From positions 1 to 64,000 of the forward strand of contig DAIDMQ010000028.1 of the NCBI GenBank assembly GCA_027448945.1: a stretch of 64,000 nt of DNA. Reading direction: 5' to 3'. Origin of the DNA: Gallionellaceae bacterium. GTDB taxonomy: Bacteria; Pseudomonadota; Gammaproteobacteria; Burkholderiales; Gallionellaceae. The notes beneath the pieces are model-generated. The model did not search any database and was not told the DNA's origin. It saw nothing but the letters and a program-made list of their open reading frames with translations. How positions within the stretch are numbered: position 1 is the first letter of the stretch; each line of letters begins with the position of its first letter. Below, in pieces: positions 18,790 through 41,352 of the stretch. The position numbers and the translations under genes are program-made.

Positions 18790-18857
18790 TGGCGGAGAAG
18801 GGGGGATTCGAACCCCCGTTGGGATATTATCCCAAACACGCTTTCCAGGCGAGTTAA
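18790..18857 (-). other. 3' part of tRNA-Ser(GGA): presumed left attachment site
   Basis: Read on the minus strand, this is the anticodon loop (CTGGAAA), anticodon 3' stem, variable arm, T-arm (GGGGGTTCGAATCCCCC), acceptor 3' strand and CCA of a tRNA-Ser. The acceptor 5' strand and D-arm are absent; the sequence becomes unrelated beyond about 18857. With a tyrosine recombinase starting 87 bases away, it is the typical footprint of an element that integrated into a tRNA gene. The intact tRNA should lie at the other end of the element, but I found no second copy in this window. Confidence 0.8.
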
Positions 18858-18943
18858 TAAAAAGTCATAGAACCAGAATTGACGTGGCTTATAGAGCTAT
18901 ATAAGATTGTCGATATGTAATTGGGGACAATTCGGGGACAGTG

Positions 18944-23345: not shown

Positions 23346-23372
23346 TAGGACCCGTTTTAACACTTCCCCTTG

Positions 23373-24535: not shown

Positions 24536-24561
24536 CGCTCATTCAAAACAAGGCAATAAAT

Positions 24562-27500
24562 ATGAAAATTAGGGAGCTTTTTACCAAGCCAATCGACCGC
24601 CCCATTAACGGTGTGATTAAAGCTGATCAACGTGATGCGGAAAGCATTTGGCAAGAGTTGGATGAATACGTCGTCACCAAACAATTGACCGAGTATTTTC
24701 GACGATTCTTCGATGCGTTCTTGGCAGCGGCAGACAACCCAAAAGATCCGGTTGTTTCATCGCGCATGGGCGTATGGGTCTCGGGATTCTTTGGATCGGG
24801 TAAATCGCACTTCATCAAAATCTTGTCCTACCTGTTGGAAAACATTGAGGCGATTGATCCCATCACTGGCAAACCCAAAAAGGCTGCTGCCTTTTTCGAT
24901 GAACACAAAATCAGAGATGCATTGCTGTTGGCCGACATGCAGCGCGCAGCAAAGGGCAGTTCCGATGTCATATTGTTCAATATCGATGCCAAGGCTGATA
25001 GCAAATCCGACCGGGACGTGATCCTTCAAGTATTCCTGCGGGTCTTCAATGAAAAGCTCGGCTACTCCGGCGATGCGCCGCACATTGCTGAAATGGAACG
25101 CTATCTGGTTGGCAAGGGCGCTTATGAAGCGTTCAAAACTGCCTTTCAGGAAAAGAATGGATCGGCGTGGAACAAAGAACGTGACGCCGTGGATTTTCTG
25201 CGTGATGACGTGGTGCATGCCCTGGCCAAAGCGCTCAACATGACGGAGGAATCCGCCGGACGCTGGTTCGATAAATCCCGTGATGACTACAAAATCAACA
25301 TCGAAGGTCTGGCAGGAATCATTCGTGGTTATCTGGATACCAAGCCTGCGGCGCACCGTGTCATCTTTCTAGTGGATGAGGTGGGGCAGTTCATCGGTGA
25401 CAACACCCAGATGATGCTGACTCTGCAAACCATCATCGAACAACTTGGCACCTTATGCCAAGGCAGGGCGTGGGTCATTGTCACCAGCCAGGAGGATATT
25501 GACGCCGCCATAGGTGAAACCAATAAAGCCAGGTCGCAAGACTTCTCTAAGATTCAGGGACGCTTCCACACTCGCCTATCGTTAGCGAGCTCCAATACCG
25601 ATGACGTGATTAGCGAACGTCTGTTGTCAAAAACTGAAGCCGCTCATGTCGAGTTGCGTGATTGTTTCGCTCAGAAGGGCGACATCATCAACAATCAATT
25701 GGCCTTTGTGGGCAACTCTGTGTCGATGCGTAGTTACAAGGATGCCGCAGAATTTGTGGCCTGCTATCCGTTCGCACCCTATCAGTTCACCTTGCTGCAA
25801 AAAATATTCGAATCTATTCGTAAAGTGGGCGCAACCGGCAAGCATCTGTCCAAAGGCGAGCGTTCTCTTCTCGATGCGTTTCAGTCAGCGGCGGTGCGTA
25901 ATGCCGAAAAAAATATCGATACACTGATCCCCATCTACGACTTTTATCCGTCTATCGAAAGCTTCATCGACACCAGTGCCAAGCGCTCGATTGATGAGGC
26001 GCCGGATAATCTGGCGCTCGAACCCTACGATGTTCAATTGCTCAAGGCACTGTTCTTGATTCGTTACATCCCGGACATTATCAAACCCAACGTAGATAAC
26101 TTGGCGACCCTCTGCGTCGATGAGATTGACGCCGATAAGCTGGCACTCAAGCGCAAGATTCAGGAAAGCCTGACCCGCTTGGAGCATCAGCGTCTGGTCA
26201 GTCGCAATGGCGAACTGTGGTCTTTCCTGACCAATGAAGAGCGCGACGTTGCCCGCGAAATTGGCCATGTCGAAGTTTCCGCCATTGAGAAATCTCGTTT
26301 GTTGAGCGAATTAATCTTTGAAGAAATCCTGAGCGGCAATACCAAGATTCGCCATCGCGAAACCAAGGGCGATTATGAGATCAACCGCCTGCTGGACGGG
26401 GCCCCTTGGAAAAATGCCAGCCACGAACTGTCGTTGGAAATCGTCACGCCGTTAAGCGATGACTTCGAAGGGTTGAGTGATGCCAAAGCGATTTTGCGCA
26501 GCACTGATCGTGCGCTGATCCGCATGGCTGAAAGTAACCGGCTCGATATTGAGTTGGCTCTCTACCTGCAAATTGAAAAATATATCGACAGTCCCAAAGC
26601 TAGTTCAGCTGCCGCACCACTCAAACGCATTCTTGCCGACCGTAAAGATGAAAATCGCGAACGCCGCGCCCGCATAGTCGCACAACTCAGCAACGCATTA
26701 GTCACTGGCGATTGCTATGCGTTAGGACAAAAGCTGCCATCCAAGTCGGCAGCACCTTCCACGCAAGTGGATGAACTGGTCAATTACCTGATCTCCAATA
26801 CCTATACCAAACTAACTTATCTCAAGGTACGTCAGCTAGATCCAATTGCCGAGATCAAGGCCATCTTAATGTCCGATAGCATCGGTCAGCACAACTTAGT
26901 GTTAGGCGGCGAAGAGGGTAATCCACTCGCGCTCAATGAAATGCGCGAATACCTTCAGCTCAAAGCCAGCCAGAGCCGCGTTCTGCTGTCCGACGTGGTG
27001 GATCGGTTTAGCGGAGCACCGTGGGGATGGAAGCCGGAGTGGGAAGTGGTATTGCTGATTGCCCGTTTGTACATGGCAGGTGAAATCAAGCTCATCGCTG
27101 ACAATTCGGATATCGAGCCTAGTGGCGCAATTGAACCACTCACCAAGTCCGTACGTTTCAAACAGGTGTCCATCCTTAAGCGGAAATCGGCCGATGCTGT
27201 TCAGATCAAGCGTGCTCGCGAATTGCACAAAGATATTTTCTCCGAGATCGGCAAGGACGACGAGGATGGTCTGGTTGCCGACTTTCGTGCCAATCTTGCC
27301 GAGTGGCAAGTTAAGTTGAAGGAATACTCCCATTCAGCCACAACCAAACATCATCCCGGCAAGGCCGTTATTGACCAGTCTCTGTCGCGCATTGCCAAAC
27401 AACTGGCGATCCGTGATCCATTTGAATTCGTTGAAGCCATACTAACGCACAAAGATGATTGGCTTGATGCGGCTGATGACATTCATGATCTCATCAGCTT

Positions 27501-28185
27501 TTACACCACCCAACTGACGACATGGCGGCGAATGCTCGAAGCCCTGCAACGCTTCGAACCGAATCGTCCCGCACTCACAAAAGAAATTGTGGCGGCAAAC
27601 GCTTTGCAGCAACTGGAAACGATACGCGATAACCTCACTCCGTATCAGCAGATCAACCAGATCGAATCCTTGATTCAATCGGTGGAGGCGGTGAATGCCA
27701 AGCTGGTTGATTCCAAGCGCGAGCACGCCTTGCTCTTGCTGGAAAAGAAAATAGCCGAAGTCAGCCAAGCGCTGAATCAAGCCCACGCACTGGCCGAGTT
27801 GCGTAACCGTGCGCTGCACTCATTGCAGCAAATCAAGTTGGATATCGCCGCTCAAACCAGCATCCCGCAAATCCATTATCTGCAGGAGCAGTCCGGTACC
27901 GCGCTGGATAGCGCGATGTACATGATCACCGTAGCCGTGAGTGCCGCCGCAAAACCGCAGCCGTTCGCCGTAAAAGCGCCGGGTGATACATCCACCGTGA
28001 TAAACCTAGGCTCGGCACAGACACCTCAAACGGTTGCCCCCAAACCCGCCAAAGTCATTCGTGCCGCCGATCTATCCAGCAAATCCTATCTGGAAACCGA
28101 AGCTGAAGTGGACGACTATCTGGTCAAGCTAAGAACAGAGCTGCTTGCCGCCATCAATGCAGGGCAACGGGCACGGATACAGTAA
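24562..28185 (+). CDS. brxC: BrxC, large P-loop ATPase of BREX
   Basis: 1207 aa, the usual size. Walker A is GFFGSGKSH at 75-83, preceded by VSSRMGVWVSG; Walker B is probably HRVIFLVDEVGQFIG. A long helical C-terminal part (about 880-1120) is rich in Leu, Glu and Gln and likely forms coiled coils. BrxC is essential for BREX and is thought to be an AAA-like motor bridging modification and restriction. No frameshift or truncation. Confidence 0.95.
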   Translation: MKIRELFTKPIDRPINGVIKADQRDAESIWQELDEYVVTKQLTEYFRRFFDAFLAAADNPKDPVVSSRMGVWVSGFFGSGKSHFIKILSYLLENIEAIDPITGKPKKAAAFFDEHKIRDALLLADMQRAAKGSSDVILFNIDAKADSKSDRDVILQVFLRVFNEKLGYSGDAPHIAEMERYLVGKGAYEAFKTAFQEKNGSAWNKERDAVDFLRDDVVHALAKALNMTEESAGRWFDKSRDDYKINIEGLAGIIRGYLDTKPAAHRVIFLVDEVGQFIGDNTQMMLTLQTIIEQLGTLCQGRAWVIVTSQEDIDAAIGETNKARSQDFSKIQGRFHTRLSLASSNTDDVISERLLSKTEAAHVELRDCFAQKGDIINNQLAFVGNSVSMRSYKDAAEFVACYPFAPYQFTLLQKIFESIRKVGATGKHLSKGERSLLDAFQSAAVRNAEKNIDTLIPIYDFYPSIESFIDTSAKRSIDEAPDNLALEPYDVQLLKALFLIRYIPDIIKPNVDNLATLCVDEIDADKLALKRKIQESLTRLEHQRLVSRNGELWSFLTNEERDVAREIGHVEVSAIEKSRLLSELIFEEILSGNTKIRHRETKGDYEINRLLDGAPWKNASHELSLEIVTPLSDDFEGLSDAKAILRSTDRALIRMAESNRLDIELALYLQIEKYIDSPKASSAAAPLKRILADRKDENRERRARIVAQLSNALVTGDCYALGQKLPSKSAAPSTQVDELVNYLISNTYTKLTYLKVRQLDPIAEIKAILMSDSIGQHNLVLGGEEGNPLALNEMREYLQLKASQSRVLLSDVVDRFSGAPWGWKPEWEVVLLIARLYMAGEIKLIADNSDIEPSGAIEPLTKSVRFKQVSILKRKSADAVQIKRARELHKDIFSEIGKDDEDGLVADFRANLAEWQVKLKEYSHSATTKHHPGKAVIDQSLSRIAKQLAIRDPFEFVEAILTHKDDWLDAADDIHDLISFYTTQLTTWRRMLEALQRFEPNRPALTKEIVAANALQQLETIRDNLTPYQQINQIESLIQSVEAVNAKLVDSKREHALLLLEKKIAEVSQALNQAHALAELRNRALHSLQQIKLDIAAQTSIPQIHYLQEQSGTALDSAMYMITVAVSAAAKPQPFAVKAPGDTSTVINLGSAQTPQTVAPKPAKVIRAADLSSKSYLETEAEVDDYLVKLRTELLAAINAGQRARIQ

Positions 28186-28261
28186 GAATAAGCGTTCAAC
28201 ACTTGGAGTATTGAGTTTTAGGGGGTATGATTCTGCATGAAACGTAAATAAGAAAGCCGTC

Positions 28262-28885
28262 ATGAGAGCGCAAACATCATCGCAGAGTAAAACATCACCC
28301 TTGATCCAGCACCTTCGTGCCGGAAAAGTTTATAGACGTGAAGACTTGGTGCCTTATTCCTCCAGCGTTGATCGTGAGTTGCAGCAACTGGTTGCATCAG
28401 GTCGGCTGACCAAGGCCGCACAAGGTCTTTATTACGCTCCCAGAAAAAGTGTATTTGGCGATGCGCCACCGGCGGAAGAGTTTCTCTTGGCGGCGTTCCT
28501 GAAAGACAAAGAATTTCTCAGCTTCAACCCCAGCGTCTATAACTCCTTGCGTTTAGGCACCACTCAGCTTTACAACAAGACCATCGTTTATAACCACAAG
28601 CGGCATGGCGTATTTAAGTTGGATCATCGTAATTATGATTTCCGCTTGAAGCATCGCTTTCCCAAGCCAAGTCAAGTGACAACCGAATATCTGTTGGTTG
28701 ATATGCTCAATAATTTATCTGAGTTAGCAGAGGATGATGAAATGGTGCTTGAGCGGGCGCAGAAAAAATTGAATCAGTTTGATACAAAAAAATTGTCTAA
28801 GGCACTTGCCGATTTCGGTTCGGTTGCAACCAAAAAATTAGTGAACGGTTGGTTGCAACCGAGCAGTCGGAGCGATGTGAATTGA
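28262..28885 (+). CDS. AbiEi-like antitoxin/regulator
   Basis: 207 aa. The N-terminal winged helix (LIQHLRAGKVYRREDLVPYSS...LQQLVASGRLTKAAQGLYYAPR) and the following domain resemble the DUF6088/AbiEi type IV antitoxins. Its stop is overlapped by the TTG start of a nucleotidyltransferase toxin gene. The pair sits between brxC and pglX in the same orientation, so it is likely read through by the BREX transcript but may also have its own promoter in the 76-base gap upstream. Confidence 0.8.
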   Translation: MRAQTSSQSKTSPLIQHLRAGKVYRREDLVPYSSSVDRELQQLVASGRLTKAAQGLYYAPRKSVFGDAPPAEEFLLAAFLKDKEFLSFNPSVYNSLRLGTTQLYNKTIVYNHKRHGVFKLDHRNYDFRLKHRFPKPSQVTTEYLLVDMLNNLSELAEDDEMVLERAQKKLNQFDTKKLSKALADFGSVATKKLVNGWLQPSSRSDVN

Positions 28886-29835
28886 AAAATTCAAAACTCT
28901 TTTTGCATCAACATAAAGATTTTGACGTGTTGATTAGTAAGATTGCGCTCGCGCTTAAAGTCCCCACCTACCTCGTTGAAAAAGATTATTGGCTCATGCA
29001 CAGCTTGTGGGCTTTGCAGCAGCAAGGTTGGCAGTTTGAATTAAAGGGCGGCACATCTTTATCCAAAGGTCACGGCATCATCACGCGCTTTTCTGAAGAC
29101 ATCGACATTCGCTTTGAACCACCCGCCGAGCTTGATTTAAAGACCAGAAGAAACCACGACAAACCGGCACACCTCGCAGCACGCAAAGCATTTTTTGACA
29201 GTCTGGCTGAGCAAATCGCCATCCCCGGACTTGTAAAGGTGAGGCGCGATACCAGTTACGACGATGACAAATATCGCAATGGCGGCATCATCCTCGACTA
29301 TCCGTCTGTGACGCAGCAATTGCCGGGTGTGAAAGAAGGCATCCTGCTCGAAGTCGGTTTTGATGTCACCACGCCCAATTCACCCTGCACCATAAGCTCC
29401 TGGGCATTGGATGCTGCCTTAAAGGCAAAACTGGAAATTATTGATAATCGGGCAGTGGGCATTGCGTGCTACAGCCCCGCCTATACCTTCGTGGAAAAGT
29501 TACAAACCGTTTCCACCAAGTTTCGCAAGCAGCAAGAAGCTGGCGGATTTCCTAAAAACTTCATGCGTCATTACTACGACATTTACTGTCTGCTTGCCAT
29601 TGCAGAAGTACAGGCATTCATTGGCACGCCTGAATACATCGCGCACAAGCAAGCCCGCTTTCCTAATGCCGACAATCAGCATATCGCCAGCAACGAAGCG
29701 TTTTTGCTGAGCGACCCCGAGACCCGTGCTCTGTATCAGCGGGAATATGAAAAGACCGCTGCTCTGTACTACACCGGCCAAATCCCGTTCGGCGAAATTC
29801 TCGCCCGTATCCATCAGCATATCGAGCACCTATAA
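28882..29835 (+). CDS. AbiEii-like nucleotidyltransferase toxin
   Basis: 317 aa from TTG 28882 (TTGA overlap with the antitoxin stop); an upstream in-frame extension would overlap the antitoxin gene by 37 bases. It has the nucleotidyltransferase signature GGTSLSKG followed by FSEDIDI, and the conserved TFVEKLQTV segment of the AbiEii/AbiGii family. In known type IV systems such toxins add nucleotides to tRNA acceptor ends and stop growth during phage attack. Five bases separate it from pglX. Confidence 0.85.
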   Translation: MKNSKLFLHQHKDFDVLISKIALALKVPTYLVEKDYWLMHSLWALQQQGWQFELKGGTSLSKGHGIITRFSEDIDIRFEPPAELDLKTRRNHDKPAHLAARKAFFDSLAEQIAIPGLVKVRRDTSYDDDKYRNGGIILDYPSVTQQLPGVKEGILLEVGFDVTTPNSPCTISSWALDAALKAKLEIIDNRAVGIACYSPAYTFVEKLQTVSTKFRKQQEAGGFPKNFMRHYYDIYCLLAIAEVQAFIGTPEYIAHKQARFPNADNQHIASNEAFLLSDPETRALYQREYEKTAALYYTGQIPFGEILARIHQHIEHL

Positions 29836-29840
29836 CCCCG

Positions 29841-32800
29841 ATGAACAAATCCAAACTAAAATCCTACGCCCCGCAAGCCCGCAAGGATTTCATCTCTGCC
29901 GTTACGGCTCGCGCCAATTTGCTCGGCTTATCGCAAGCAGGTGACAAACTTGAAGTCGCACCCAGCGAGAGAAAAGGTGATATCGCCATCATCGCTGGTC
30001 GTGAGTGGCCGGCCAAGGTGTATGAGCAACGCGAACGCCTGATCAAGCACATCAAGACAGTAGGCTTCAGCCAGACGATGGAAGCCGTCGCCTACACCTG
30101 GTTCAACCGCTTTGCCGCGTTGCGCTACATGGAAATCCACGACTATTTGGATCACGGTCATCGCGTGCTTTCCAATCGTGCAGGCGGCATGCCGGAAATC
30201 CTCAACCACGCCACCGAGCTGGAACTGCCGGGCTTCAACAAAGCCAAAGCAGTTGAACTCAAGTTGGCCGGCAACAAGGACGGCGAACTCTACAAAATGC
30301 TGCTGGTCGCCCAGTGCAACGCGCTCTCCCGCGCCATGCCTTTCCTGTTCGAGCGTATCGACGATGAAACCGAACTGCTGCTGCCGGACAACCTGCTGCG
30401 CACCGATTCCATCATTGCCAAACTGGTGGAAGCCATTCCCGAAGAAGACTGGCAGGAAGTCGAAATCATCGGCTGGCTCTACCAGTTCTACATCAGCGAG
30501 AAAAAGGACGAAGTGATCGGCAAGGTGGTCAAGAGCGAGGACATCCCCGCCGCCACCCAGCTCTTCACCCCCAACTGGATCGTGCAATACCTGGTGCAGA
30601 ACAGCGTCGGTCGCCTGTGGCTGATGGCTAACCCGGCTTCGACGCTGAAAAGCCAGTGGCCGTATTACATTGAACCTGCCGAGCAGATGCCCGAGGTGCA
30701 TGCTCAACTCGATGCCTTGATTCAGACGCGGATGAGCGATGACGGTGGTAGCCTCAACCCCGAAACCATCACCATGCTGGACCCCGCTTGCGGTTCCGGC
30801 CACATCTTGGTGGTGGCCTACGACGTACTCAAAGCCATCTACCTGGAACGCGGCTACCAGCTCCGCACCATACCGCGCCTGATCCTGGAAAAGAACCTCT
30901 ACGGTCTCGACATCGACGACCGCGCCGCACAACTGGCAGGTTTCGCATTGCTGATGAAAGCCCGTGCCGATGACCGCCGCCTGTTCGATAACCCGCCCAT
31001 GCTTAACGCGCTGGCTTTGCAGGAAAGCAAGGGGATGGATGCCGATGAAATCGTCCGCGTCTTGCTCCCTTCGCCCGCAAGCGGGAGAGGGGCTGGGGGA
31101 GAGGGAGCAGTCGAAGCACAATCCATCCGCCAACTGATCGACACCTTCGCCCATGCCAAAACCTTCGGCTCGCTGATCCAGGTTCCACAGGAGCTGAATG
31201 CGCAACTGGCGACGCTGGCCGTGGGTTTGCATCAGGCCGTGCAGAATGGCGATCTTTATGCCAAGGTTGCAGCGCAGGATTTGTTGCCGTTGGTAAGACA
31301 GGCGATGGTGCTGGGGATACAGTTCGACGCGGTGGTGGCGAATCCGCCATATATGGGGGGGAAGGCGATGAACGCCGAGGTGAAAGACTTCGCCAAGAAG
31401 CACTTTCCCGATAGCAAGTCCGATCTGTTCGCTATGTTCATCGAGCGCGGATTTGACTGGTGCAAGCAGTCGGGTTTCAACAGTATGGTGACGATGCAGA
31501 GTTGGATGTTCCTGTCATCGTATGAGGCAATGCGGGAAAGACTACTCCAAGATCGAACGATCTTAACTATGGCCCATCTCGGTGCAAGGGCGTTTAGTGA
31601 GATTTCCGGCGAGGTGGTGCAAACGACGGCATTTTGTATGAGTAGATTCACGATGCCAAACTTCTTCCCAACATTCTTCAGGCTGATAGAAGGGGATGAA
31701 GCAAAGAAGAATTCTGATTTGCTGGCAAGAAGCAACTGCTTCACGACTACTTTGCAGTCCAATCTTTTAAAAATACCGGGTTCACCATTGTCATACTGGA
31801 TAACACCTTCGGCTTTAAATTGCTACATAAATCTAAAGCAGCTATCAGACTTGTATGATCCAAAAGCAGGAATATCAACTGGCGCAAATGGACGTTTCAT
31901 CTCTCACTGGTGGGAGCACTCAAATACCTCCTTGAACATCTTTGCGGGCAAGGCTGAAAAAGCAAAAATAAAATTCTTCCCCCACAATAAGGGTGGCGAA
32001 TACCGACGCTGGTACGGGAACACTGATTTTGTTCTACGATACGACAGCGATTCAATTCGAGAAATGGAACAATTGGCTGGATTTCGGCACGATAATGCTG
32101 GGCTCTATTTCCAAGCCTCAGTAACTTGGAGCAAGATTACTTCAAGCGGGTTTTGTGCGAGGGCGTTCCCGCCTGGATATTCGTTTGATAGCGCTGGAAT
32201 TTCGATTTTCCCAGACCAGCCTGTTTCATATGCCGGCTTGTTGAATTCAAATTCATTTTCGTATCTAACAAGCTTTATTTCTCCAACGCTGAACTTTACT
32301 GTAGGCGATATTTCCAGAGTCCCCATTCCGACAGTGATTGCTGACACAGATACACAGAGGTCACTCATTAACATCTTTGAGAAAGACTGGGCTTCGAGTG
32401 AGTCATCCCACGAGTTCAAATCTTTTTCTTTGCTGGAGTTCAAAGCCACTTCGCTGTCGGTTGCCTATGAACAGAATGATTTAGCTGTCAAATCGTGTGT
32501 CAGTAAAGTACAAAGTCTTGAATCCGATAACAACCGGCTCTTCATCGAAGCCTACGGCCTTCAAGACGAACTCTCACCCGAAGTTCCCGAAGATCAGATC
32601 ACCCTCGCCCGCGCCGATCGCGAGAAGGACTGCCAGCGCCTGATCTCCTACGCCATCGGCTGCATGATGGGGCGTTACAGCCTGGATGAACCCGGACTGA
32701 TCTACGCCCACGCCGGTAACGTCGGCTTCGATGCCACCCGCTACCAGACTTTCCCCGCCGACGCCGATGGCATCGTGCCGCTTACCGACGAACTCTGGTT

Positions 32801-33374
32801 CGAGGACGATGCCGCCAACCGCGTCCGCGAATTCCTGCTGGCCGTGTGGGGTGCTGAGACACTGGAAGAGAACCTGGCATGGTTGGCAGAAAGCCTGGGC
32901 AAGAAGGGCAATGAAACCCCGGAAGAAACCATCCGCCGCTATCTCTCAGGCAGCTTCTACAAAGACCATCTGCAAACCTACAAGAAGCGCCCAATCTACT
33001 GGCTGTTTTCCAGCGGCAAACAAGGCGCATTCCAGGCGCTGGTCTATCTGCACCGCTACCACGAAGGCACGCTGGCCCGGATGCGCAGCGAATACGTCGT
33101 GCCGCTGACCGGCAAAATCCAGTCGCGCATCGAAATGCTGGAAAAAGACAAGGACGCCGCCACCGTCACCGCCGCCCGCAACAAGATCAACAAGGAAATC
33201 GAAGGGCTGCGCAAGAAACACGTCGAACTCCTGTCCTACGACGAAAAACTCCGCCACTACGCCGACATGCGCATCCAGCTGGATCTCGATGACGGGGTGA
33301 AGGTGAACTACGGTAAGTTTGGAGATTTACTGGCCGAGGTGAAGGCGGTGACGGGTGGTGCTAACGAGGACTAG
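29841..33374 (+). CDS. pglX: PglX (BrxX), BREX adenine-N6 DNA methyltransferase
   Basis: 1177 aa. The SAM-binding motif I is DPACGSGH from Asp314, and the catalytic motif IV is NPPY at 501-504. The C-terminal half contains target recognition and ends in a helical region with KTYKKRPIYWLFSSGKQ. It methylates one strand of a non-palindromic site, marking self DNA. Around residues 408-424 a Gly/Ser/Pro-rich stretch comes from a palindromic repeat inserted in frame (annotated separately). The target site cannot be predicted by eye. Confidence 0.95.
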   Translation: MNKSKLKSYAPQARKDFISAVTARANLLGLSQAGDKLEVAPSERKGDIAIIAGREWPAKVYEQRERLIKHIKTVGFSQTMEAVAYTWFNRFAALRYMEIHDYLDHGHRVLSNRAGGMPEILNHATELELPGFNKAKAVELKLAGNKDGELYKMLLVAQCNALSRAMPFLFERIDDETELLLPDNLLRTDSIIAKLVEAIPEEDWQEVEIIGWLYQFYISEKKDEVIGKVVKSEDIPAATQLFTPNWIVQYLVQNSVGRLWLMANPASTLKSQWPYYIEPAEQMPEVHAQLDALIQTRMSDDGGSLNPETITMLDPACGSGHILVVAYDVLKAIYLERGYQLRTIPRLILEKNLYGLDIDDRAAQLAGFALLMKARADDRRLFDNPPMLNALALQESKGMDADEIVRVLLPSPASGRGAGGEGAVEAQSIRQLIDTFAHAKTFGSLIQVPQELNAQLATLAVGLHQAVQNGDLYAKVAAQDLLPLVRQAMVLGIQFDAVVANPPYMGGKAMNAEVKDFAKKHFPDSKSDLFAMFIERGFDWCKQSGFNSMVTMQSWMFLSSYEAMRERLLQDRTILTMAHLGARAFSEISGEVVQTTAFCMSRFTMPNFFPTFFRLIEGDEAKKNSDLLARSNCFTTTLQSNLLKIPGSPLSYWITPSALNCYINLKQLSDLYDPKAGISTGANGRFISHWWEHSNTSLNIFAGKAEKAKIKFFPHNKGGEYRRWYGNTDFVLRYDSDSIREMEQLAGFRHDNAGLYFQASVTWSKITSSGFCARAFPPGYSFDSAGISIFPDQPVSYAGLLNSNSFSYLTSFISPTLNFTVGDISRVPIPTVIADTDTQRSLINIFEKDWASSESSHEFKSFSLLEFKATSLSVAYEQNDLAVKSCVSKVQSLESDNNRLFIEAYGLQDELSPEVPEDQITLARADREKDCQRLISYAIGCMMGRYSLDEPGLIYAHAGNVGFDATRYQTFPADADGIVPLTDELWFEDDAANRVREFLLAVWGAETLEENLAWLAESLGKKGNETPEETIRRYLSGSFYKDHLQTYKKRPIYWLFSSGKQGAFQALVYLHRYHEGTLARMRSEYVVPLTGKIQSRIEMLEKDKDAATVTAARNKINKEIEGLRKKHVELLSYDEKLRHYADMRIQLDLDDGVKVNYGKFGDLLAEVKAVTGGANED
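31064..31110 (+). repeat. GC-rich palindromic repeat inserted in the pglX frame
   Basis: The stretch CTCCCTTCGCCCGCAAGCGG...GGGAGAGGG has the form of a widespread intergenic bacterial repeat: a CCCGCAAGCGGG hairpin flanked by C-rich and G-rich arms. It encodes LPSPASGRGAGGEGA without breaking the pglX frame and lies between the methyltransferase motifs I and IV. Confidence 0.65.
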
Positions 33375-33428
33375 ATCGACTAGCTCAAAAAATCAGGACT
33401 GTTCAATAGCAATCAAAAAGGGAAAAAT

Positions 33429-34163
33429 ATGGGGATTAAGTTTCGCGATGACCCAGACTTGCAGTTTCTGGCGCATGCCAAGCATGAAGATTTGCAAATA
33501 CTGGTTGATTACTTGACCAAAGACAAGGATGGCGAAAAGCGATACGCGCAGGAATTGCTGGATGAAGAACGCTTCATCGGGGCCACGGGCAAACTGACCA
33601 AGGTATGGGACTTGATTGCCGCCGAATTACAACTGTTCGGCGGGGATGCCATCGTGAATCAACTAAGGGGAAATGGCGTTTTGTACAAGGAAGTACTTTG
33701 CGACGTATGTAGTCACCTCGAAGTGAAATTCGACAAGTTGCAGTCTGCGTATCAGATAGAAGATAAGCTAATCGAGAAGTTGCTTGAAAAATTCTGGAGT
33801 GAACTTTCCCTGGAGAGTCGCAACGAATTTACAAAGGAATTCGGCTTGAGACCTGATTTGCAGACTAATGACCTGCTCACTCAGCTACAAAAACTATTCA
33901 GGGAAGATCTCGGCTTTTCGTACCGAGCATCTGTCTTGCTGGCCAATTCATTTGCCTTTGCGCTGTTGGGTAGAGGAGTCGGTAGTCTTGTTGGATTCGG
34001 AATATCTAGATATCTGAGCGTGCTGGCTGGGCCGCTAGGTATTGCAATCAGTGCCCTATTCACAATTGGGTCGATATCTGGCCCTGCTTATAGAGTGACC
34101 ATTCCTTGTGTAATGCAGATTGCCTATATGCGCAGAGCTTTAGCTAAATCTGATCGCTATTAG
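33429..34163 (+). CDS. YaaW-like protein (DUF3944/UPF0174)
   Basis: 244 aa. It aligns by eye along its whole length with E. coli YaaW: an N-terminal DUF3944 unit (DPDLQFLAHAKHEDLQILVDYL), the middle WDLIAAELQLFGGDAIVNQLRG, and the C-terminal SGPAYRVTIPCVMQIAYMRR. Residues about 165-222 are hydrophobic and Gly-rich and may insert in a membrane. No function is established. It lies 54 bases after pglX with its own purine-rich ribosome site, and 10 bases before a membrane protein gene, inside the BREX operon. Confidence 0.8.
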   Translation: MGIKFRDDPDLQFLAHAKHEDLQILVDYLTKDKDGEKRYAQELLDEERFIGATGKLTKVWDLIAAELQLFGGDAIVNQLRGNGVLYKEVLCDVCSHLEVKFDKLQSAYQIEDKLIEKLLEKFWSELSLESRNEFTKEFGLRPDLQTNDLLTQLQKLFREDLGFSYRASVLLANSFAFALLGRGVGSLVGFGISRYLSVLAGPLGIAISALFTIGSISGPAYRVTIPCVMQIAYMRRALAKSDRY

Positions 34164-34173
34164 GAGAAGTTTC

Positions 34174-35034
34174 ATGGATACATTATTCAGAATTGATTGG
34201 TCTTCGGTTGCGCCAGAGGTAGTCAAAGGGCTTCAGGATGGCACCATGCGTGTTTCCTCAGCTAATGGTGTTGCATACTGGGCACGAGGCTCAGGCTCCA
34301 CGGGAGCCGTACAGCATTTACCTTTTGTACAAGCAAATGTATCTAACGCTAGTAACCTGATGGAATCCGCAAAGCTCCTTCAAGCTGCACAACAAGCGCA
34401 AATGGTCGCGATAGGAATTTCAACTGGCGTGATAGTTGGGGCGATTGTGATTCAGACTATGTATTTGGCGCGAAAACTGGACAAGCTGCAAAAGACCATA
34501 GACTTGGTTTCAGAGGATGTTCACTCACAAAATATTGTCTTCTATATGAACAAGATTGCGGATTATTTTGGATCAGTTGAATCCGCTCGCATCTACCTGC
34601 TAGACCGTAGTCTGAAGGAGGAGGTCAGAGATGTTGCCTTGCCGGTACTTGCTGACCTCTCAATCAGGAGGAATCAGCTGTTCTCCTTTATTGACAATAT
34701 TCTGCAACTGGCGAAGTCTGATGCCTTGTCACAACGACACTATGAACTCATCATCGACTTTGTAACTCTGGCTCTTGAAATGTTGCCCAAAGGTGCATTT
34801 GTTGAAAAAGAGCTATATGTGTTTATTGAAAAATATGGCCTGGCCGAACTGGTGATTGAACAAGCTGAAACTCGTTATTTGAATCTGCTCTCAACCTATA
34901 AAGGGTGGTGTAACGAGCAGGTGAAATTGGCAGTGAACGGAAGCGCGCGCTCGGGAAGTATATTGGGCAGGGATGATGAACTTAAATATCTTTTCTCTTC
35001 TGAAGAAAACAAACTTCTAATCGGAAGAGCATAA
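34174..35034 (+). CDS. Unknown one-helix membrane protein in the BREX operon
   Basis: 286 aa, family not recognised. One membrane helix (about 78-98, GISTGVIVGAIVIQTMYLA) separates a 77-residue N-terminal part from a helical domain (about 100-260) that starts with a short coiled-coil-like KLDKLQKTIDLVSEDV. AGGAG precedes the ATG, and the stop is directly followed by the pglZ ATG. The neighbour is a YaaW-like protein with a hydrophobic C-terminus; the pair probably works together at the membrane. Confidence 0.65.
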   Translation: MDTLFRIDWSSVAPEVVKGLQDGTMRVSSANGVAYWARGSGSTGAVQHLPFVQANVSNASNLMESAKLLQAAQQAQMVAIGISTGVIVGAIVIQTMYLARKLDKLQKTIDLVSEDVHSQNIVFYMNKIADYFGSVESARIYLLDRSLKEEVRDVALPVLADLSIRRNQLFSFIDNILQLAKSDALSQRHYELIIDFVTLALEMLPKGAFVEKELYVFIEKYGLAELVIEQAETRYLNLLSTYKGWCNEQVKLAVNGSARSGSILGRDDELKYLFSSEENKLLIGRA

Positions 35035-37641
35035 ATGACCCAACGCATTGTTGATTCCCTGTCTGCCCTGTATACCAACAATGCCGTGGTGTTTTGGCAT
35101 GATGTTGATGCGGAGTTTTCATCTTCAGTTGAGGGGCTGTCCTTGCCAGATGTGCAACTGCTGCGCATTGATTCTATGCCCGCGCTTCAAGTGAAATTGA
35201 ACATTGAACGCGCCCCAACACAGAAATGGCTGCTTTACAGTAATAAGCTGGAACCTGGACTTGCCCAAGATTGGTTGTTGGATATTCGTCTACGCAGCAA
35301 GTTATTCAGTGCAGATGCTGCATCCATTTTGTTAGAAGACCTCGGCCTGTCATCCAAAACTTTGCGTGCGCATCTGAAGTTGCGTACGAAGTTTTTGCGC
35401 TCAAAAGAGCGTGTCGAAAAACTCAAACGTTTAGTTTTGCCAACCGATGCAGCCGACGATCTGGATCGAAAAATGCTGGCGGTATTGGCGCGCGCGGATC
35501 AACCAGACTTAGCTTCGATGTTGTTGCGCTTATTCTCAGCCTTGGTCGTGAACGGTGATGCTGACTTGGATGCAGTACCCAAACAATGGCAGGACATCCA
35601 GAGCAACGAACTGGAATCTGCTTTCTGGGTGAAGGTGAATATTGAGTTTGGCTACGCTGTAGCAGAGCCGACCTTGCGCGATTTGTTGTTCCACTTACTG
35701 GCCACTGATTTTGCACGTGCGCTGTCTGGTACTTGCCCCGGCCAGCTCACTCATTTCGTGTTGCCCAATAAAACGCAGGCGGGGAATGCGGCGGTGTTTG
35801 TGGGGCGCTGGCGTTCTGACATGGCGCACTTTGCTAGTTACAACGCTTTGTCCGAAGCAGTAGCCAAGGAATTGGATATTGGCGGGATGTTAGGCACGCT
35901 GTCCGGTGATGCAATGTCGGATGTGATGACCTTCTCGGTAGTCGAGTTGTGCATCATCAAATATCTCAAGGATCGTATTATCGCGGCATCGGGTGCTGAA
36001 TCAAATGCTGTGCGCTCCCTGATCGCACGTCGTCGTGATGGCCATTGGGCTAATCGTTTGCTGGCACAGGGAAGCGACACGTCCCGCGCATTGGTGGCTA
36101 GTTATGACGCGCTGGAGGCTGCATACAGCTTCTTTGAACTAAAGGTTGCGCATGAGGCTGGATTTAGTTTTGCTGACGGAGCAGAGGGACTGGCAACATA
36201 TCAGACTGAGATATTTCGTTTCGACCAACTCTACCGACAGTTTAACTACGCCGCTGCTGCGGTTAAGCCGACGGGATGGGCTGTGTTGCATGAGTTAAAC
36301 GAACGCATCGAAAATACCTATTCGGGCTGGTTTATGCCGCAACTGACTTCAGCCTGGAGCAAGGTGATTGAAGGCGACAGCGGATTATTGAAGTCATGGC
36401 GCGTTGATGGATGGGTCAATCAACCTAATTTTTATGCGAAGTACGTAGAGCCCGTATTGGATGGTGGTACCAAACGAGTTTTCGTAGTGATTTCGGATGC
36501 TTTTAGATATGAAGCAGCAGAAGAGTTAGTCAGAGTCATCAATGGACGTAGTCGACTTAAGGCTTCCTTGTCTGCAATGCTTGGCGTGCTGCCCAGCTAT
36601 ACAGCGTTGGGTATGGCTTCACTCTTGCCGCACGCGAATTTGGCTTACAAGACTAATGCAAATCAGGATTTAAGTGCAGATGGGTTGGTGGTCTCAACCG
36701 TAGAACAGCGCAGTGCACATCTTGAAAAGTATGGTGGTGTGGCAATTAAGGCAGAAGAATTGCTGGCTTTGGGTAAAGATAAGGGGCGAGAGTTTGTACG
36801 TGATCGGCAGGTGGTCTACATTTACCACGATCGAATTGACATGATTGGCGATAAGCAGGCATCAGAAACAAAAACCTTTGAGGCGGTGAACGACACGCTA
36901 ACTGAGTTGGGACAGTTGGCTAATTTCATTATTAATAGCCTCAATGGATCTACGGTGTTGATGACAGCGGATCATGGCTTCATGTATCAAGAGTCGGCAC
37001 TGGATGAAGTAGATAAATCGCCTTTGGCAGAAAAGCCCGACGGCATGTTGCGCGCCAAGAAGCGTTTCTTGATCGGACAAGGAATCGGGAACAATGCCAA
37101 AACATGGTGCGGCAATACGGCGGTGACGGCGGGAACCGAAGCAGGTGAGGGGAGTATGGATTTTTGGCTACCCAAAGGGGCGGCACGTTTTCACTTTGCC
37201 GGTGGTGCGCGATTTGTTCATGGCAGCGCGATGCCACAAGAGATCGTGATTCCAGTGATTACGCTGCGCGAAAGTGAATCCGATAAAGCCAAAACACGCA
37301 TTGTGGAATTCAGTCTGTTGGGCGCATCCAACAAGGTGGTGACCAACCGGCAGCGCTTTGAGTTTATTCAGACTGAGGCGATTTCGGAGCGCGTATTGTC
37401 GCGCACGGTGCAGATTTCGATCCGCGATGGCGAGACCTTAATTAGCGATGAGCAATCGTTGACCTTCGACAGCGATTCGGAGTTGATGGATAAGCGCAAG
37501 CGCACGGTGATGCTGACGGTGCGATCCGGCAGCTATGACCGTAACAAGGATTACTACTTGATCGCCCGTGATGTGCAAACCAAGGTTGAGGTGTTGCGTT
37601 CGCCTTTACGGGTGGACTTGGCGTTTGCCAACGACTTTTAG
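35035..37641 (+). CDS. pglZ: PglZ (BrxZ), alkaline-phosphatase-fold BREX protein
   Basis: 868 aa. The core domain carries metal-ligand motifs of the alkaline phosphatase superfamily: Asp488 in VVISDAFRYE, the nucleophile region PSYTALGMASLLPH, and Asp646-His647 in MTADHGFMY. PglZ is required for BREX and has metal-dependent phosphodiesterase activity in studied members. It begins at the base after the preceding stop. The C-terminal about 130 residues form a beta-rich domain typical of the family. Confidence 0.95.
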   Translation: MTQRIVDSLSALYTNNAVVFWHDVDAEFSSSVEGLSLPDVQLLRIDSMPALQVKLNIERAPTQKWLLYSNKLEPGLAQDWLLDIRLRSKLFSADAASILLEDLGLSSKTLRAHLKLRTKFLRSKERVEKLKRLVLPTDAADDLDRKMLAVLARADQPDLASMLLRLFSALVVNGDADLDAVPKQWQDIQSNELESAFWVKVNIEFGYAVAEPTLRDLLFHLLATDFARALSGTCPGQLTHFVLPNKTQAGNAAVFVGRWRSDMAHFASYNALSEAVAKELDIGGMLGTLSGDAMSDVMTFSVVELCIIKYLKDRIIAASGAESNAVRSLIARRRDGHWANRLLAQGSDTSRALVASYDALEAAYSFFELKVAHEAGFSFADGAEGLATYQTEIFRFDQLYRQFNYAAAAVKPTGWAVLHELNERIENTYSGWFMPQLTSAWSKVIEGDSGLLKSWRVDGWVNQPNFYAKYVEPVLDGGTKRVFVVISDAFRYEAAEELVRVINGRSRLKASLSAMLGVLPSYTALGMASLLPHANLAYKTNANQDLSADGLVVSTVEQRSAHLEKYGGVAIKAEELLALGKDKGREFVRDRQVVYIYHDRIDMIGDKQASETKTFEAVNDTLTELGQLANFIINSLNGSTVLMTADHGFMYQESALDEVDKSPLAEKPDGMLRAKKRFLIGQGIGNNAKTWCGNTAVTAGTEAGEGSMDFWLPKGAARFHFAGGARFVHGSAMPQEIVIPVITLRESESDKAKTRIVEFSLLGASNKVVTNRQRFEFIQTEAISERVLSRTVQISIRDGETLISDEQSLTFDSDSELMDKRKRTVMLTVRSGSYDRNKDYYLIARDVQTKVEVLRSPLRVDLAFANDF

Positions 37642-37650
37642 GAAATTACG

Positions 37651-39681
37651 ATGAGCGATATAAACCAAGACAAAAGCCTCGATGCGTTATTGAACGAATT
37701 CCTGCCCGGCAAGGTGGTGCGCAAGGATTTGACCAAGCTGATCAAGGAAGGTGCGAATGTGCCGGTGTATGTGCTGGAGTATTTACTCGGTATGTATTGT
37801 GCCTCTGATGACCAAGCAACCATTGATGCAGGATTAACTAATGTGAAGCGGGTGCTGGCAGAAAACTACGTCCGCCCCGATGAAGCGGAAAAGGTGAAGT
37901 CCAAGATCCGTGAGAGCGGTAGCTATAAGGTGATCGACAAGGTAACGGTCAAGCTGAACGAAAAGCGCGATACTTATGAAGCATTGCTTGCCAACTTGTC
38001 GATCAAGGATGCGGAAATCCCCGATTCCTATGTGCGCAATTTTGAGAAGCTTCTAGTCGGCGGCATTTGGTGCATCATCACGCTGCAATACCGTTACGAG
38101 GAAAATCAAAAGGGATCTCCATTCTCTGTGTCTGAATTAAAGCCGATCCAGATGCCCAACATGGACATGGAAGACCTGTTCAAGTCGCGCAAAGGCTTTA
38201 CAGAAGAACAGTGGATCGACGGATTGATCCGCTCGACAGGGATGGAGCCATCTTGTTTTGATCAACGTGTGAAATGGCACTTATTGGCGCGCATGATTCC
38301 GCTAGTGGAGAACAGCTACAACCTGTGCGAGCTAGGACCGCGCGGTACGGGCAAGAGCCATATCTACAAAGAAATTAGTCCGAACAGTATTCTCGTTTCC
38401 GGCGGACAGACTACGGTTGCGAACCTGTTCTATAACATGGGTTCACGCAAGATCGGCTTGGTCGGATTATGGGATGTGGTCGCGTTTGATGAAGTGGCGG
38501 GTATTAATTTCAAAGAACAGGACGGCGTGCAGATCATGAAGGACTACATGGCCAGCGGGTCGTTCTCGCGCGGTCGCGAGTCCATCAATGCCAGTGCTTC
38601 CATGGTGTTCGTAGGCAACATCAACCAATCAGTTGAGCAGATGGTGAAGACCAGCCATTTACTGGCGCCATTTCCAGAGGCGATGATCGACGCTGCCTTC
38701 TTTGATCGCTTCCATGCGTATGTGCCAGGTTGGGAGATTCCCAAGATGCGTCCGGAATTCTTTACCAACCAGTACGGCATGATTGTGGACTACTTGGCCG
38801 AATGGTTGCGCGAAATGCGCAAACGCAGCTTTGCAGATGCGATCGATAAGTGGTTCAAGTTGGGCAACAACCTGAATCAGCGCGATACGATTGCCGTGCG
38901 CAGAACAGTGTCAGGACTCCTCAAACTGACCTGCCCACATGGCCGGTACGACAAGGAGAGCGTACGCCGTGCATTGGAATACGCACTTGAAACTCGTCGC
39001 CGTGTAAAAGAGCAACTTAAAAAGATTGGTGGCATGGAGTTCTATGACGTCCACTTCAGCTATATCGATTTGGAAGACAGGCAGGAGCATTTTATCTCGG
39101 TGCCGGAGCAGGGGGGCGGATCGCTCATTCCAGATGGCAGGCCAAACCCAGGAACACTGCACACCATCAGTATCGGTGAGAACGGTATGCCAGGCGTGTA
39201 TAGATTGGAGATTCAATCTATCGCCGGTAATGGCAAGGTATCAGTGACTGGCAATAGCTATAGGGAACACTCCAAGGTGGCTTTTGATTACTTTAAGGCC
39301 AACGCTTCAAGGGTCAGCGGGGCGATTAAGCCGGGAGATCACGACTACCATTTACACTTGGTGGAACTTCAAAATTCTGGTGCTCCCGAGGCACTGACAC
39401 TGGCCAGCTTGATTGCGCTGTGCTCAGCAACATTAACCAAGCCGGTTCAATCTCAGATGGTCGTGATGGGTGATATGACGCTTGGCGGGACAATCACTCA
39501 GGCACGTAACCTAGCTGAAAGTTTGCAGGTTGCGTTTGACGCTGGTGCCAAACGCATCCTGTTGCCCATGTCGAGCGTGACCGATATCCCAACTGTGCCG
39601 GGCGAACTGTTCGCCAAATTCCAGACCAGCTTTTATTCTGACCCAATTGATGCGGTGTTCAAGGCGCTGGGAGTGGAGTAG
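37651..39681 (+). CDS. brxL: BrxL, AAA+ protein with Lon-like domain
   Basis: 676 aa. The AAA+ core has Walker A GPRGTGKS at 229-236 and Walker B VVAFDEVAG. The C-terminal region is Lon-like (GDMTLGGTITQ... AKRILLPMSSVTDIP). Aligned without gaps to the Lon of this same window, the catalytic Ser position is Ala581 and the Lys position is Ser624, so it is probably not a protease. BrxL is the DNA-binding restriction factor of type 1 BREX, resembling MCM rings. Last gene of the operon. Confidence 0.95.
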   Translation: MSDINQDKSLDALLNEFLPGKVVRKDLTKLIKEGANVPVYVLEYLLGMYCASDDQATIDAGLTNVKRVLAENYVRPDEAEKVKSKIRESGSYKVIDKVTVKLNEKRDTYEALLANLSIKDAEIPDSYVRNFEKLLVGGIWCIITLQYRYEENQKGSPFSVSELKPIQMPNMDMEDLFKSRKGFTEEQWIDGLIRSTGMEPSCFDQRVKWHLLARMIPLVENSYNLCELGPRGTGKSHIYKEISPNSILVSGGQTTVANLFYNMGSRKIGLVGLWDVVAFDEVAGINFKEQDGVQIMKDYMASGSFSRGRESINASASMVFVGNINQSVEQMVKTSHLLAPFPEAMIDAAFFDRFHAYVPGWEIPKMRPEFFTNQYGMIVDYLAEWLREMRKRSFADAIDKWFKLGNNLNQRDTIAVRRTVSGLLKLTCPHGRYDKESVRRALEYALETRRRVKEQLKKIGGMEFYDVHFSYIDLEDRQEHFISVPEQGGGSLIPDGRPNPGTLHTISIGENGMPGVYRLEIQSIAGNGKVSVTGNSYREHSKVAFDYFKANASRVSGAIKPGDHDYHLHLVELQNSGAPEALTLASLIALCSATLTKPVQSQMVVMGDMTLGGTITQARNLAESLQVAFDAGAKRILLPMSSVTDIPTVPGELFAKFQTSFYSDPIDAVFKALGVE

Positions 39682-39837: not shown

Positions 39838-40224
39838 GTGGGTACTTTAGAAAATATTGAAACTGAAAATGGGGCATCAGTGTCCCCTTTGAGATTCAAA
39901 GTGACGGTCTCACAGGCAGAAGCTGAACTTCACGAGCTATTATCACAAGCGAAGCCATATTACCGGTCGCGTCGGCTGATGCACCTAGCTAGACTTGGAT
40001 TGATGGTTGAAAAAGGGCAGTTTACGAATGCCGGCCCTTCACCAATCGTCGCCGCGCAGCCTCTCGTAATCGCAGTAGAAAAAGGTCACCCGACACCCGC
40101 CGCGCCGGATGTAACGAAGCCCTCGCCTGCTACTGAAAGACCGATTCACTACGCAATGATTTCCGAGAACGCAAGCGACGCGATTGGAAACTTGCTCGGA
40201 TCGTTAGATATGAATGGATTTTGA
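39838..40224 (+). CDS. Orphan small protein upstream of the structured-RNA candidate
   Basis: 128 aa from GTG 39838, with AGGAG six bases upstream. An N-terminal helical segment (RFKVTVSQAEAELHELLSQAKPYYRSRRLMHLARLGLMVEKG, about 20-60) is followed by a Pro/Ala/Thr-rich linker and a short acidic tail. The first half resembles a small DNA- or RNA-binding helical unit, but I recognise no family. It lies between brxL and a 0.75-kb region rich in RNA hairpins, possibly its partner. Confidence 0.55.
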   Translation: MGTLENIETENGASVSPLRFKVTVSQAEAELHELLSQAKPYYRSRRLMHLARLGLMVEKGQFTNAGPSPIVAAQPLVIAVEKGHPTPAAPDVTKPSPATERPIHYAMISENASDAIGNLLGSLDMNGF

Positions 40225-40555
40225 GTTTAATTTTACGGCGCCAGATGGATTCCCGCAAAGAAATAGTGGCAATGGAAATCTTTGATACTTACATTATTTC
40301 GTATTCACAGAAAATTCCTTCAATACAGAGTGATTTGCGAAGCCAGTAAACATATGTCTTCCAGTCGATTTTTCAATACTGACCGCCGGGATAATCGCAT
40401 TTGAAAATAGTTGACATCGCCAAATCAAACTGGTGTAATCGTGTAGATTGCTTCGGCACTTCAGTTCATGGACTGTAAATCCACGGCGTTTACCTGCAGG
40501 CGCTAATAAACAGGAATTCAAAAAGTAGTAGGGCGATTAGTCATCGCTGAATCGA
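40225..40555 (+). other. Gene-free leader before the structured-RNA candidate
   Basis: About 330 bases without a convincing gene; an open frame of 75 codons on the minus strand (40294-40521) has no ribosome site or recognisable domain. The stretch is less hairpin-rich than what follows and may hold the RNA's promoter, for instance TTGACA at 40411-40416, or part of its 5' domain. Confidence 0.4.
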
Positions 40556-41280
40556 GTGTGCCATCCGGCTGCTCACCAAGTCCGCTAATGGACTATCAGG
40601 CATTCGTGCCGTTCGCCTTTGTCAGGGCGAGACAATCAGAGTTGAGATAACACCAGTAAAGAAATTAGTAACCCCGATGCGGGCGCACTGATACCCAGAG
40701 TCCTAGTACCCGGAGCCGCAAGGCGTTCGAGTCAGTGGCTTGGTGGTATTTGGATGCGAGGTATCAGGCTGTCTGTCGTACTGCCCAGTCAATGACTGGG
40801 AGTTCAGGCGTAGGGGTAAAAATGGATAAGAAAGTGAAGCCTTAGCAATTGAAAGTCTTATATGACGATAGTAATTAGCACATCACACACCTCACCGCGC
40901 TGCGGATATGAGTTTACAAAACGAGCTGGGTAGTCCGCCGTTTGTATTCCGAGGAAAGAGACGGGGCCGAGAGGCTGAGACACCTGGTGGTAGGGTGTCA
41001 AAAAAGTAAACCGAGTGTGGTTGCACAAGATTCAAAATAAATGGGTAGTGCTGAGATATCAGTGCAGAAGGTGCGGCGTAACAATGCTGCGTAGCTTAGA
41101 AAGCTACAGTTTGGTTTGAAGACAGAAATGTCTCATCAGATTGCCTCCCAAGGGACTTACGTAAATACCGTGTCGAAAGACAGAATTGATACTTTTCCGA
41201 GCTGACGGACAATCAGCCCCACTCTATGATGAGATATGGGTGACAGTGGTTATACAAATGGAGAGTTTGACTGATTCTCC
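40556..41280 (+). ncRNA. Candidate large structured non-coding RNA
   Basis: No open frame of note in about 725 bases, but dense local pairing. Hairpins seen: 40579-40594 (5 bp), 40599-40610 (GGCA/TGCC with a UUCG loop), 40715-40724 (GCAA loop), 40784-40800 (7 bp), 40979-40999 (6 bp), 41073-41090 (7 bp, AACA loop), 41091-41107 (7 bp), 41121-41132 (GAAA loop), 41171-41182 (GAAA loop), 41201-41217 and 41260-41280 (5 bp each). CTGATACC (40688) also pairs at longer range with GGTATCAG (40760), closing a multibranch domain. Strand is assumed from the GNRA/UUCG loops, which are only stable on the plus strand. The class (GOLLD/ROOL-like, intron-derived, or new) is not identified. Confidence 0.6.
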
Positions 41281-41352
41281 CGTGGGATATTCAAACATAC
41301 GGTGATGAAAGGCGGTTGCTGGGCCAACCTAACGGAATACAATGCATCAATT

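Follow-up and report, generated by a model that had tools for sequence, protein, structure and literature searches.

A predicted structured RNA of about 0.8 kb, found in Gallionellaceae and frequently located beside integrases

Large ornate noncoding RNAs of bacteria include GOLLD, ROOL and OLE, the models of which are in Rfam (PMC12286853, cited throughout for the parts of its text available to us). GOLLD and ROOL often occur near tRNA islands of phages and prophages, and their functions are given there as still open (PMC12286853). Here, we describe a locus in a 64,000-nt stretch ("the window") of contig DAIDMQ010000028.1 of a Gallionellaceae bacterium (GenBank GCA_027448945.1). On the evidence of sequence comparison, positions ~40446-41243 of its forward strand encode a previously uncatalogued structured RNA of ~0.8 kb (~800 nt), larger than first noted, the fold of which is conserved among freshwater relatives. 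Few bacterial RNA families are this large and complex.

The predicted RNA has in common with GOLLD a large size (many GOLLD members exceed 800 nt), an elaborate covarying structure and a mobile-element setting (PMC12286853); unlike GOLLD, it matches no Rfam model and is linked to integrases, not to phage tRNA islands. ROOL, which occurs in phages and prophages, is likewise large and ornate, and was dispensable in one strain examined (PMC12286853), whereas the present RNA has no match to its model and was found only in genomes of one bacterial family. OLE, large and ornate too, has dedicated protein partners (PMC12286853). Unlike OLE, the RNA described here does not match the OLE model. OLE is linked to extremophiles and is not known to be linked to integrases. 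In Vibrio cholerae, abundant noncoding transcripts are made by the phage ICP1 (~800 nt) and, as another RNA, by its PLE satellites, the PLE transcript differing from our case in that it lies between inverted repeats (PMC7567579, in the parts available). As for the ICP1 RNA, blastn found no match in the phage collection, whose inclusion of ICP1 is unconfirmed. Noncoding RNAs encoded next to a DNA-mobility enzyme are known as the bridge RNA of IS110 and the omega RNA of IS605; in contrast to these, the mobility enzyme here is a recombinase of tyrosine type, the RNA exceeds them several-fold in length, and no clear guide-like match was seen. A literature search that covered few subscription papers, and so does not establish absence from print, returned no integrase-linked large RNA of this kind.

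The Rfam 15 search proposed in the preliminary description of this DNA gave no credible match to the RNA: over the 64 kb, two tRNAs were the only hits at the gathering threshold. Between 40200 and 41500, four sub-threshold matches of unrelated kinds appeared at E ≤ 10, none of them GOLLD, ROOL, OLE or an intron, and in three homologous loci (L107, L023 and L105) nothing fell on the RNA at E ≤ 1, those same families included. The membership in GOLLD, ROOL, OLE or the ribozyme introns that had been considered was thus not borne out by any family model at these thresholds, the group II intron model with its domain V among them.

Homologous copies and the conserved fold

The features of the RNA and its upstream region, all on the forward strand, are the following (compensatory cells are those counted in the alignments described below).
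40323..40410, +, conserved upstream DNA block: ATACAGAGTGAT box, second half-repeat ~58 nt on, and a GGATAATCGC-like stretch
40411..40439, +, sigma-70-like promoter TTGACA-N17-TGTAAT, with 11 of 12 consensus letters
40446..41243, +, large structured RNA, its start inferred from promoter spacing and its end from the last consensus pair
40467-40485 and 40486-40503, +, two 5′ hairpins with 12 and 8 compensatory cells
40613..40781, +, most conserved core, from which covariance models R1 and R2 were made; 32 of its 35 consensus pairs form in the window copy
40680-40696/40758-40775, +, long-range helix (16 pairs, 13 compensatory cells) enclosing hairpin 40700-40755 (21 pairs, 23 compensatory cells)
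40781..40807, +, hairpin after the core: two stacked helices with 10 pairs altogether and 19 compensatory cells
40884..41021, +, 3′ domain: closing helix 40884-40889/41016-41021 (4 compensatory cells) and hairpin 40979-40999 (11)
41073..41107, +, two adjacent short stems, found by eye, with compensating letters in eight homologues; absent from the automatic fold
41113..41139, +, helix with conserved CAGAAAUG loop: 11 pairs, 21 compensatory cells

In all, 17 copies were identified by DNA, covariance-model and integrase searches combined; RNA or integrase loci fetched from genomes carry L labels. At E ≤ 0.1, the DNA search of 299 relatives gave matches in 34 genomes, of which, apart from the window's own, six reached E ≤ 1.8e-5 and the remaining ones had short, weak matches only; a sensitive blastn aligned seven loci over 189-645 nt at 62.7-67.4% identity. 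Covariance model R1 found 13 copies in 9 of 158 Gallionellaceae genomes, and R2, built from 16 copies, 17 copies in 12 of the 158 (in 9 of 94 good-quality genomes). When R1 was run on 399 genomes of the order, the only two with matches, the window's own and G090, both belonged to Gallionellaceae. R2 on 369 genomes of the class matched the window's own genome and, falsely, G739 (E 0.0026; 26.3 bits), where the match lies inside a 1565-aa open reading frame (ORF) on the other strand and was rejected. The copies were sorted into groups I and II, which by eye have alignment motifs in common, e.g., CTTACG and AGACGG...GCCGAG, the latter located in the 3′ domain.

The interval 40556..41280, to which the preliminary description had assigned a structured RNA, folds better than all 20 dinucleotide shuffles (z −3.51), but its reverse strand folds equally well (z −3.64; none of 20 shuffles as good), and therefore folding energy alone proves neither an RNA nor its strand. 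Covariation among the homologues, the test that had been called for, is strong in the core as well as over the full length. The core test used 16 sequences, nine of which had no part in deriving the structure, although the alignment was fitted to that structure by the covariance model: the fraction of paired cells is 91.5%, both partners vary in 23 of 35 pairs, and compensatory cells number 88, against 29.5 ± 4.2 in shuffled alignments (none of 500 as high) and 6-16 in slid controls. The 15 copies other than the window's form 28 to 35 of their 33-35 core pairs. For the full length, structures were predicted on the same MAFFT alignments on which they were tested; both sides change in 82 of 141 pairs in group I (nine sequences; 181 compensatory cells versus 60.9 ± 7.2 shuffled and 27-49 slid) and in 55 of 186 pairs in group II (six sequences; 71 versus 24.1 ± 4.3 and 12-21). 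L022, truncated by a contig end, was excluded from alignments A1, A7 and A9, and L027, near-identical to L025, from A6, A7 and A9; a locus lacking the core, L108, stands outside all pair-count RNA alignments and outside the 17 copies. A-C mismatches are depleted (9 cells versus 34.5 expected), while G-U pairs are nearly kept (96 versus 113), which points to an RNA of the forward strand.

Chance folding is ruled out by the covariation with its shuffle and slide controls. A protein gene is likewise ruled out, by the compensatory changes and by the lack of any forward-strand ORF of at least 40 aa overlapping 40556..41280, where the earlier statement that there is no open frame thus holds for the forward strand; the reverse strand has ORFs of 56, 47 and, across the end of the interval, 66 aa. 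The latter (41250-41450) overlaps the 3′ flank of the RNA and has no sign of being a gene. Long, with many covarying helices and no forward-strand ORF of that size, the RNA has these structural attributes of a large ornate noncoding RNA.

Its limits had been drawn too narrowly: an RNA does lie in 40556-41280, but in an alignment of homologues the conserved part begins before 40556 and extends to about 41230, the promoter and 5′ helices occupy 40411-40548, and the last consensus pair is at ~41243. All four loops named at the outset (UUCG at 40603, GCAA at 40718, GAAA at 41125 and 41175) can be read in the sequence; judged by eye, conservation does not extend to the GAAA loop at 41175 or to the UUCG hairpin. 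The 8-bp helix first seen at 40688-40695/40760-40767 proved to be part of the 16-pair long-range helix, which is 89% paired and has 6 pairs changed on both sides. In L021, L023, L024, L041, L042 and L025-L027, the adjacent stems at 41073-41107 are again present, formed by other, compensating letters; they were judged by eye because a dedicated alignment was poor and the automatic fold missed them.

A sigma-70-like site scoring at least 9 of 12 precedes the core by 202-285 nt in 16 of the 17 copies (the exception is L105). Since 740 of 3400 mononucleotide-shuffled 300-mers also reach a score of 9 somewhere, it is the similar position of the site that is telling, not its mere presence. A generic promoter scan omitted 40411-40439 because its rule demands an A at position 2 of the second hexamer. 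The box of the DNA block before the promoter, possibly an operator or a recombination site, occurs with at most 2 mismatches at this place in 10 of 11 group I copies, and at this place in none of the 6 group II copies; such 2-mismatch matches also arise elsewhere by chance, the window included. The eleventh group I copy, L023, carries the box beyond its integrase: there, a ~95-nt block (L023:9308-9403, from the ATAGAGAGTGAT box to GGATAATGCC..TTGGAAA) stands alone on the far side of a type A integrase and ends about where the promoter would start. This block may be a recombination site.

Searches beyond the family gave no further copy. Blastn with the window copy found nothing in plasmids, phages or Escherichia coli genomes; 72,556 plasmid records contained no match when queried with one group I and one group II copy, and neither did the phage collection with a group II copy. 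In viral contigs, a 17-base pattern matched 33 stretches, all R1-negative, two further patterns yielded no copy, and integrase scans gave no match for A3 and A4 and, with L107, three distant loci, all RNA-negative.

Linkage to integrases and copies without them

An integrase of tyrosine-recombinase type is found no more than ~3 kb from 13 of the 17 copies; most of these integrases belong to two dissimilar types. Those of type A (Pfam PF12835 and PF12834), which have one weak PDB match to a XerC-like recombinase (E 0.0031), occur within ~1 kb of five copies (L021, L023, L024, L041 and L042); a sixth, L022, has one ~3 kb away. Six copies (L043, L045, L104, L105, L106 and L107) come immediately after a type B integrase (302 aa), the TTGACA-like box of the promoter overlapping the type B stop codon in five of these six loci, and L025 has a third type nearby (PF00589). 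We call type B a tyrosine recombinase because its plasmid relatives are annotated as integrases and its C-terminal HGVRH..GH..Y aligns with the catalytic end of type A, albeit with an hhalign probability of only 25.5 (E 0.00075). In four type A loci (L021, L024, L041 and L042), integrase and RNA share a strand, with the RNA immediately upstream; in the type B loci the RNA comes after the integrase, and in L023 the two are divergent, a variety of layouts that argues against a mere mRNA leader.

Adjacency also held when the search started from the integrase. A type A scan of the genome contigs returned six loci, all with the RNA and all already known; a family-wide type A profile search added two loci without an RNA core (L102 and L103). 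The corresponding type B search added seven loci, with the core in four (L104-L107), flanking RNA parts only in L108, and none in L109 and L110; among the five with at least 59.5% identity to the L045 integrase (L104-L108), four have the core. Four RNA copies were thus found by way of the integrase, at independent loci. The divergences of RNA and integrase are correlated, with r 0.97 (2 of 120 permutations as high) and 0.80 (3 of 720). In one genome, L024 and L041 have ~2.5 kb in common at 81% identity, comprising integrase and RNA.

The copies L025, L026 and L027 have no type A or B integrase adjoining. Their three pairwise comparisons yield 11, 14 and 12 fully compensatory pairs, against an expectation of 1.8-2.8 double hits of whatever kind; the RNA therefore seems to be kept for a function independent of a neighbouring integrase of type A or B, in keeping with action in trans. 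L025 and L027 have only an RNA unit of ~1.03 kb in common and differ in their flanks, so that the RNA can occur as a unit of its own.

In the type B locus L108, the RNA (L108:1400-1998) retains the 5′ hairpins and the 3′ GAGCGAGACCGGTCC and GGGCGAAAC motifs without the central core; it could be a compact or a decayed variant. In L043, a 12-nt exact inverted match, ACAACCGGACGG, with similar neighbours links the 3′ flank of the RNA to a place ~3.3 kb away (positions 292 and 3590), possibly an element end. Distant type B relatives (L111-L115, 47.6-54.9% identity) sit on small plasmids. Relatives were seen in 160 plasmid records (Klebsiella 72, Vibrio 34, Aeromonas 21, Shewanella 6), 145 of them typed non-mobilizable; in five inspected ones, an ORF of ~195-234 aa follows the integrase, where Gallionellaceae loci have the RNA.

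Possible roles of the RNA

The suggestion that this is a real, possibly new, mobile-element RNA has gained from the covariation, the lack of a credible Rfam match, and the linkage to integrases and a genomic island. As to its role, the reading that we favour, tentatively and at somewhat less than even odds, is that of a trans-acting ornate noncoding RNA of ~0.8 kb with its own promoter, an accessory gene of tyrosine-recombinase integrative elements carrying anti-phage cargo, which would assist or regulate their recombination or maintenance. It draws on what the sequences offer: the conserved forward-strand fold, the promoter-like site at a similar place, the linkage to two dissimilar integrase types in several layouts, the parallel divergence of RNA and integrase, and the compensatory change in copies that no type A or B integrase adjoins. 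We infer that the RNA is transcribed, from its own promoter, and stable; it would form an RNA or RNA-protein particle acting in trans, which would assist or regulate the recombination or maintenance of the element (for example, the timing of excision after phage attack) and not a metabolic process.

Several observations weigh against this role. Close linkage alone makes RNA and integrase distances correlate. No integrase of any type was seen near 4 of the 17 copies (window, L026, L027 and L044), and at E ≤ 1e-30 three of the 12 RNA-bearing genomes (G000, G062 and G068) lack an integrase of either type A or type B. Conversely, the type A integrases L102 and L103 (the latter near a contig end) and the distant type B relatives L109-L115, L124-L126 and L135 lack the RNA. 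Type B has no match in Pfam (four proteins tested), NCBIfam (one protein) or PDB. The solo copies L025-L027 also show 10, 15 and 5 broken pairs, and their fold was predicted on those three sequences themselves.

The strongest competitor, which we consider possible though less probable than the recombination or maintenance role, is a general GOLLD/ROOL-like ornate RNA: an RNA-only multimer or scaffold used in phage attack or host stress, close to integrases because it lives in mobile islands. Size, multi-domain covarying fold, sporadic presence and mobile-element setting are alike in the described families (PMC12286853), the compensatory change in solo copies would fit, and so would the neighbours, which include BREX, Dsr1, E1-E2/JAB, BilD-like, MkoA-like, NERD-UvrD, caspase and DNA methylase/Vsr genes; however, the neighbours here are integrases and not the phage or prophage tRNA islands described for those families (PMC12286853), neither blastn of phage records nor pattern searches of viral contigs found a copy, and the linkage to two integrase types would require a separate reason. 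Distinctly improbable is a cis-acting structure, that is, either a leader through which translation of the integrase is controlled or an attachment site of single-stranded DNA with a fold like that of integron attC. The four loci with the RNA directly upstream of a same-strand integrase, and the conserved DNA block before the promoter in group I, are what it would predict, yet the RNA follows the integrase in type B loci and diverges from it in L023, solo copies persist, A-C depletion favours RNA over DNA, and attC sites are far smaller than ~800 nt. We give the same low likelihood to a stronger form of the preferred role, in which the RNA would be an obligatory cofactor of the tyrosine recombinase, and the ribonucleoprotein would set the direction, timing or site of defence-island integration.

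An RNAII-like replication primer or copy-number RNA of the excised element is more doubtful still: a long structured RNA with its own promoter-like site and distant type B relatives on small plasmids would be in keeping with it, but the plasmid records searched with one copy of each group had no match, and one plasmid with a type B relative, from Klebsiella, possesses a ColRNAI replicon and a Rop gene of its own and does not match the RNA model. That the RNA guides a tyrosine recombinase to its target by base pairing, as its linkage to and parallel divergence with the integrase might suggest, is very unlikely. The longest exact matches of 16 RNAs to their own 5-kb flanks average 12.3 nt versus 11.8 nt for the flanks of other loci, a test that is weak because the element ends are not mapped, and the longest of all, 15 nt in L043 and L104 (controls 14 and 13), have no common place, the L043 one being T-rich. 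Least credible, to the point of being negligible, is that the stretch is the decayed remnant of an intron (group I or II) or of a protein gene. The 5′ end motif of group II introns resembles the GTGTG at 40556, but conservation begins upstream of that position, compensatory evolution speaks against either decayed state, and the Rfam intron models matched neither the window region at E ≤ 10 nor L107, L023 and L105 at E ≤ 1.

What sets the family apart is a frequent, co-diverging protein neighbour with a presumed activity, site-specific recombination, which makes its function directly testable in a reporter assay. Should the RNA act with the recombinase, it would represent a new class of RNA-assisted DNA mobility and, if it were an obligatory cofactor, the first RNA-dependent tyrosine recombination system; should it not, it would still be a new ornate RNA family tied to phage-defence mobile islands. 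The data hint at a role of RNA in how DNA islands move or survive.

The host island and neighbouring genes

The window copy is a solo copy within a tRNA-Ser island that carries a BREX operon. The left part of the island, as far as the RNA, has these features.
18782..18851, +, left repeat of the island: 70-bp direct repeat, 3′ part of tRNA-Ser (by eye)
18941..19993, +, the island's own integrase, Phage_integrase family (Pfam), not an RNA-linked type
23370..39681, +, BREX operon: BrxA, BrxB, BrxC, AbiEii-like, PglX, PglZ, BrxL; context, outside the RNA system
39838..40224, +, orphan protein of 128 aa upstream of the RNA, a possible partner or regulator

The right repeat lies beyond the window, at 81168-81237 of the same contig, and the 70-bp repeat is perfect. 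Neither the type A nor the type B profile matched anything in the window's own genome at E ≤ 1e-30. BREX adjoins the RNA at the window copy only; other copies have other neighbours: Dsr1-like (L027), E1-E2/JAB (L042), BilD-like (L043), MkoA-like (L045), NERD-UvrD (L021), a caspase (L105) and DNA methylase and Vsr genes (L041). PADLOC had no match for the tested proteins of L022 and L044, nor for one of two each from L024 and L042. As the proteins to test were hand-picked, these neighbours do not amount to a measured enrichment.

Both proteins proposed earlier as partners of the RNA have lost ground. The orphan protein matched nothing in Pfam, PADLOC, NCBIfam, viral contigs or plasmids; of 157 other genomes of the family, 2 encode a relative, next to the RNA copy L041 in one case and, in the other (L130), without an RNA in the 8 kb fetched. 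For the HExxH protein (41353-42057), tblastn at E ≤ 1 gave nothing at any of the 12 other RNA loci to which it was applied (L104-L107 were outside this search). The orphan protein and its relatives (window:39838-40224, L041:7032-7412 and L130:3320-3691) form a small family with an invariant LRFKV core and a YYRS(R/K)RL stretch, perhaps ribbon-helix-helix DNA-binding proteins; an AlphaFold model (mean pLDDT 41.8) is uninformative on this idea. Further downstream, umuDC-like genes occur near the RNA at window:42483-44198, where they belong to the Peptidase_S24 and impB/mucB/samB families, and at L044:6765-8827; the two regions align over 1.6 kb at 68%, the orientation of the RNA being different.
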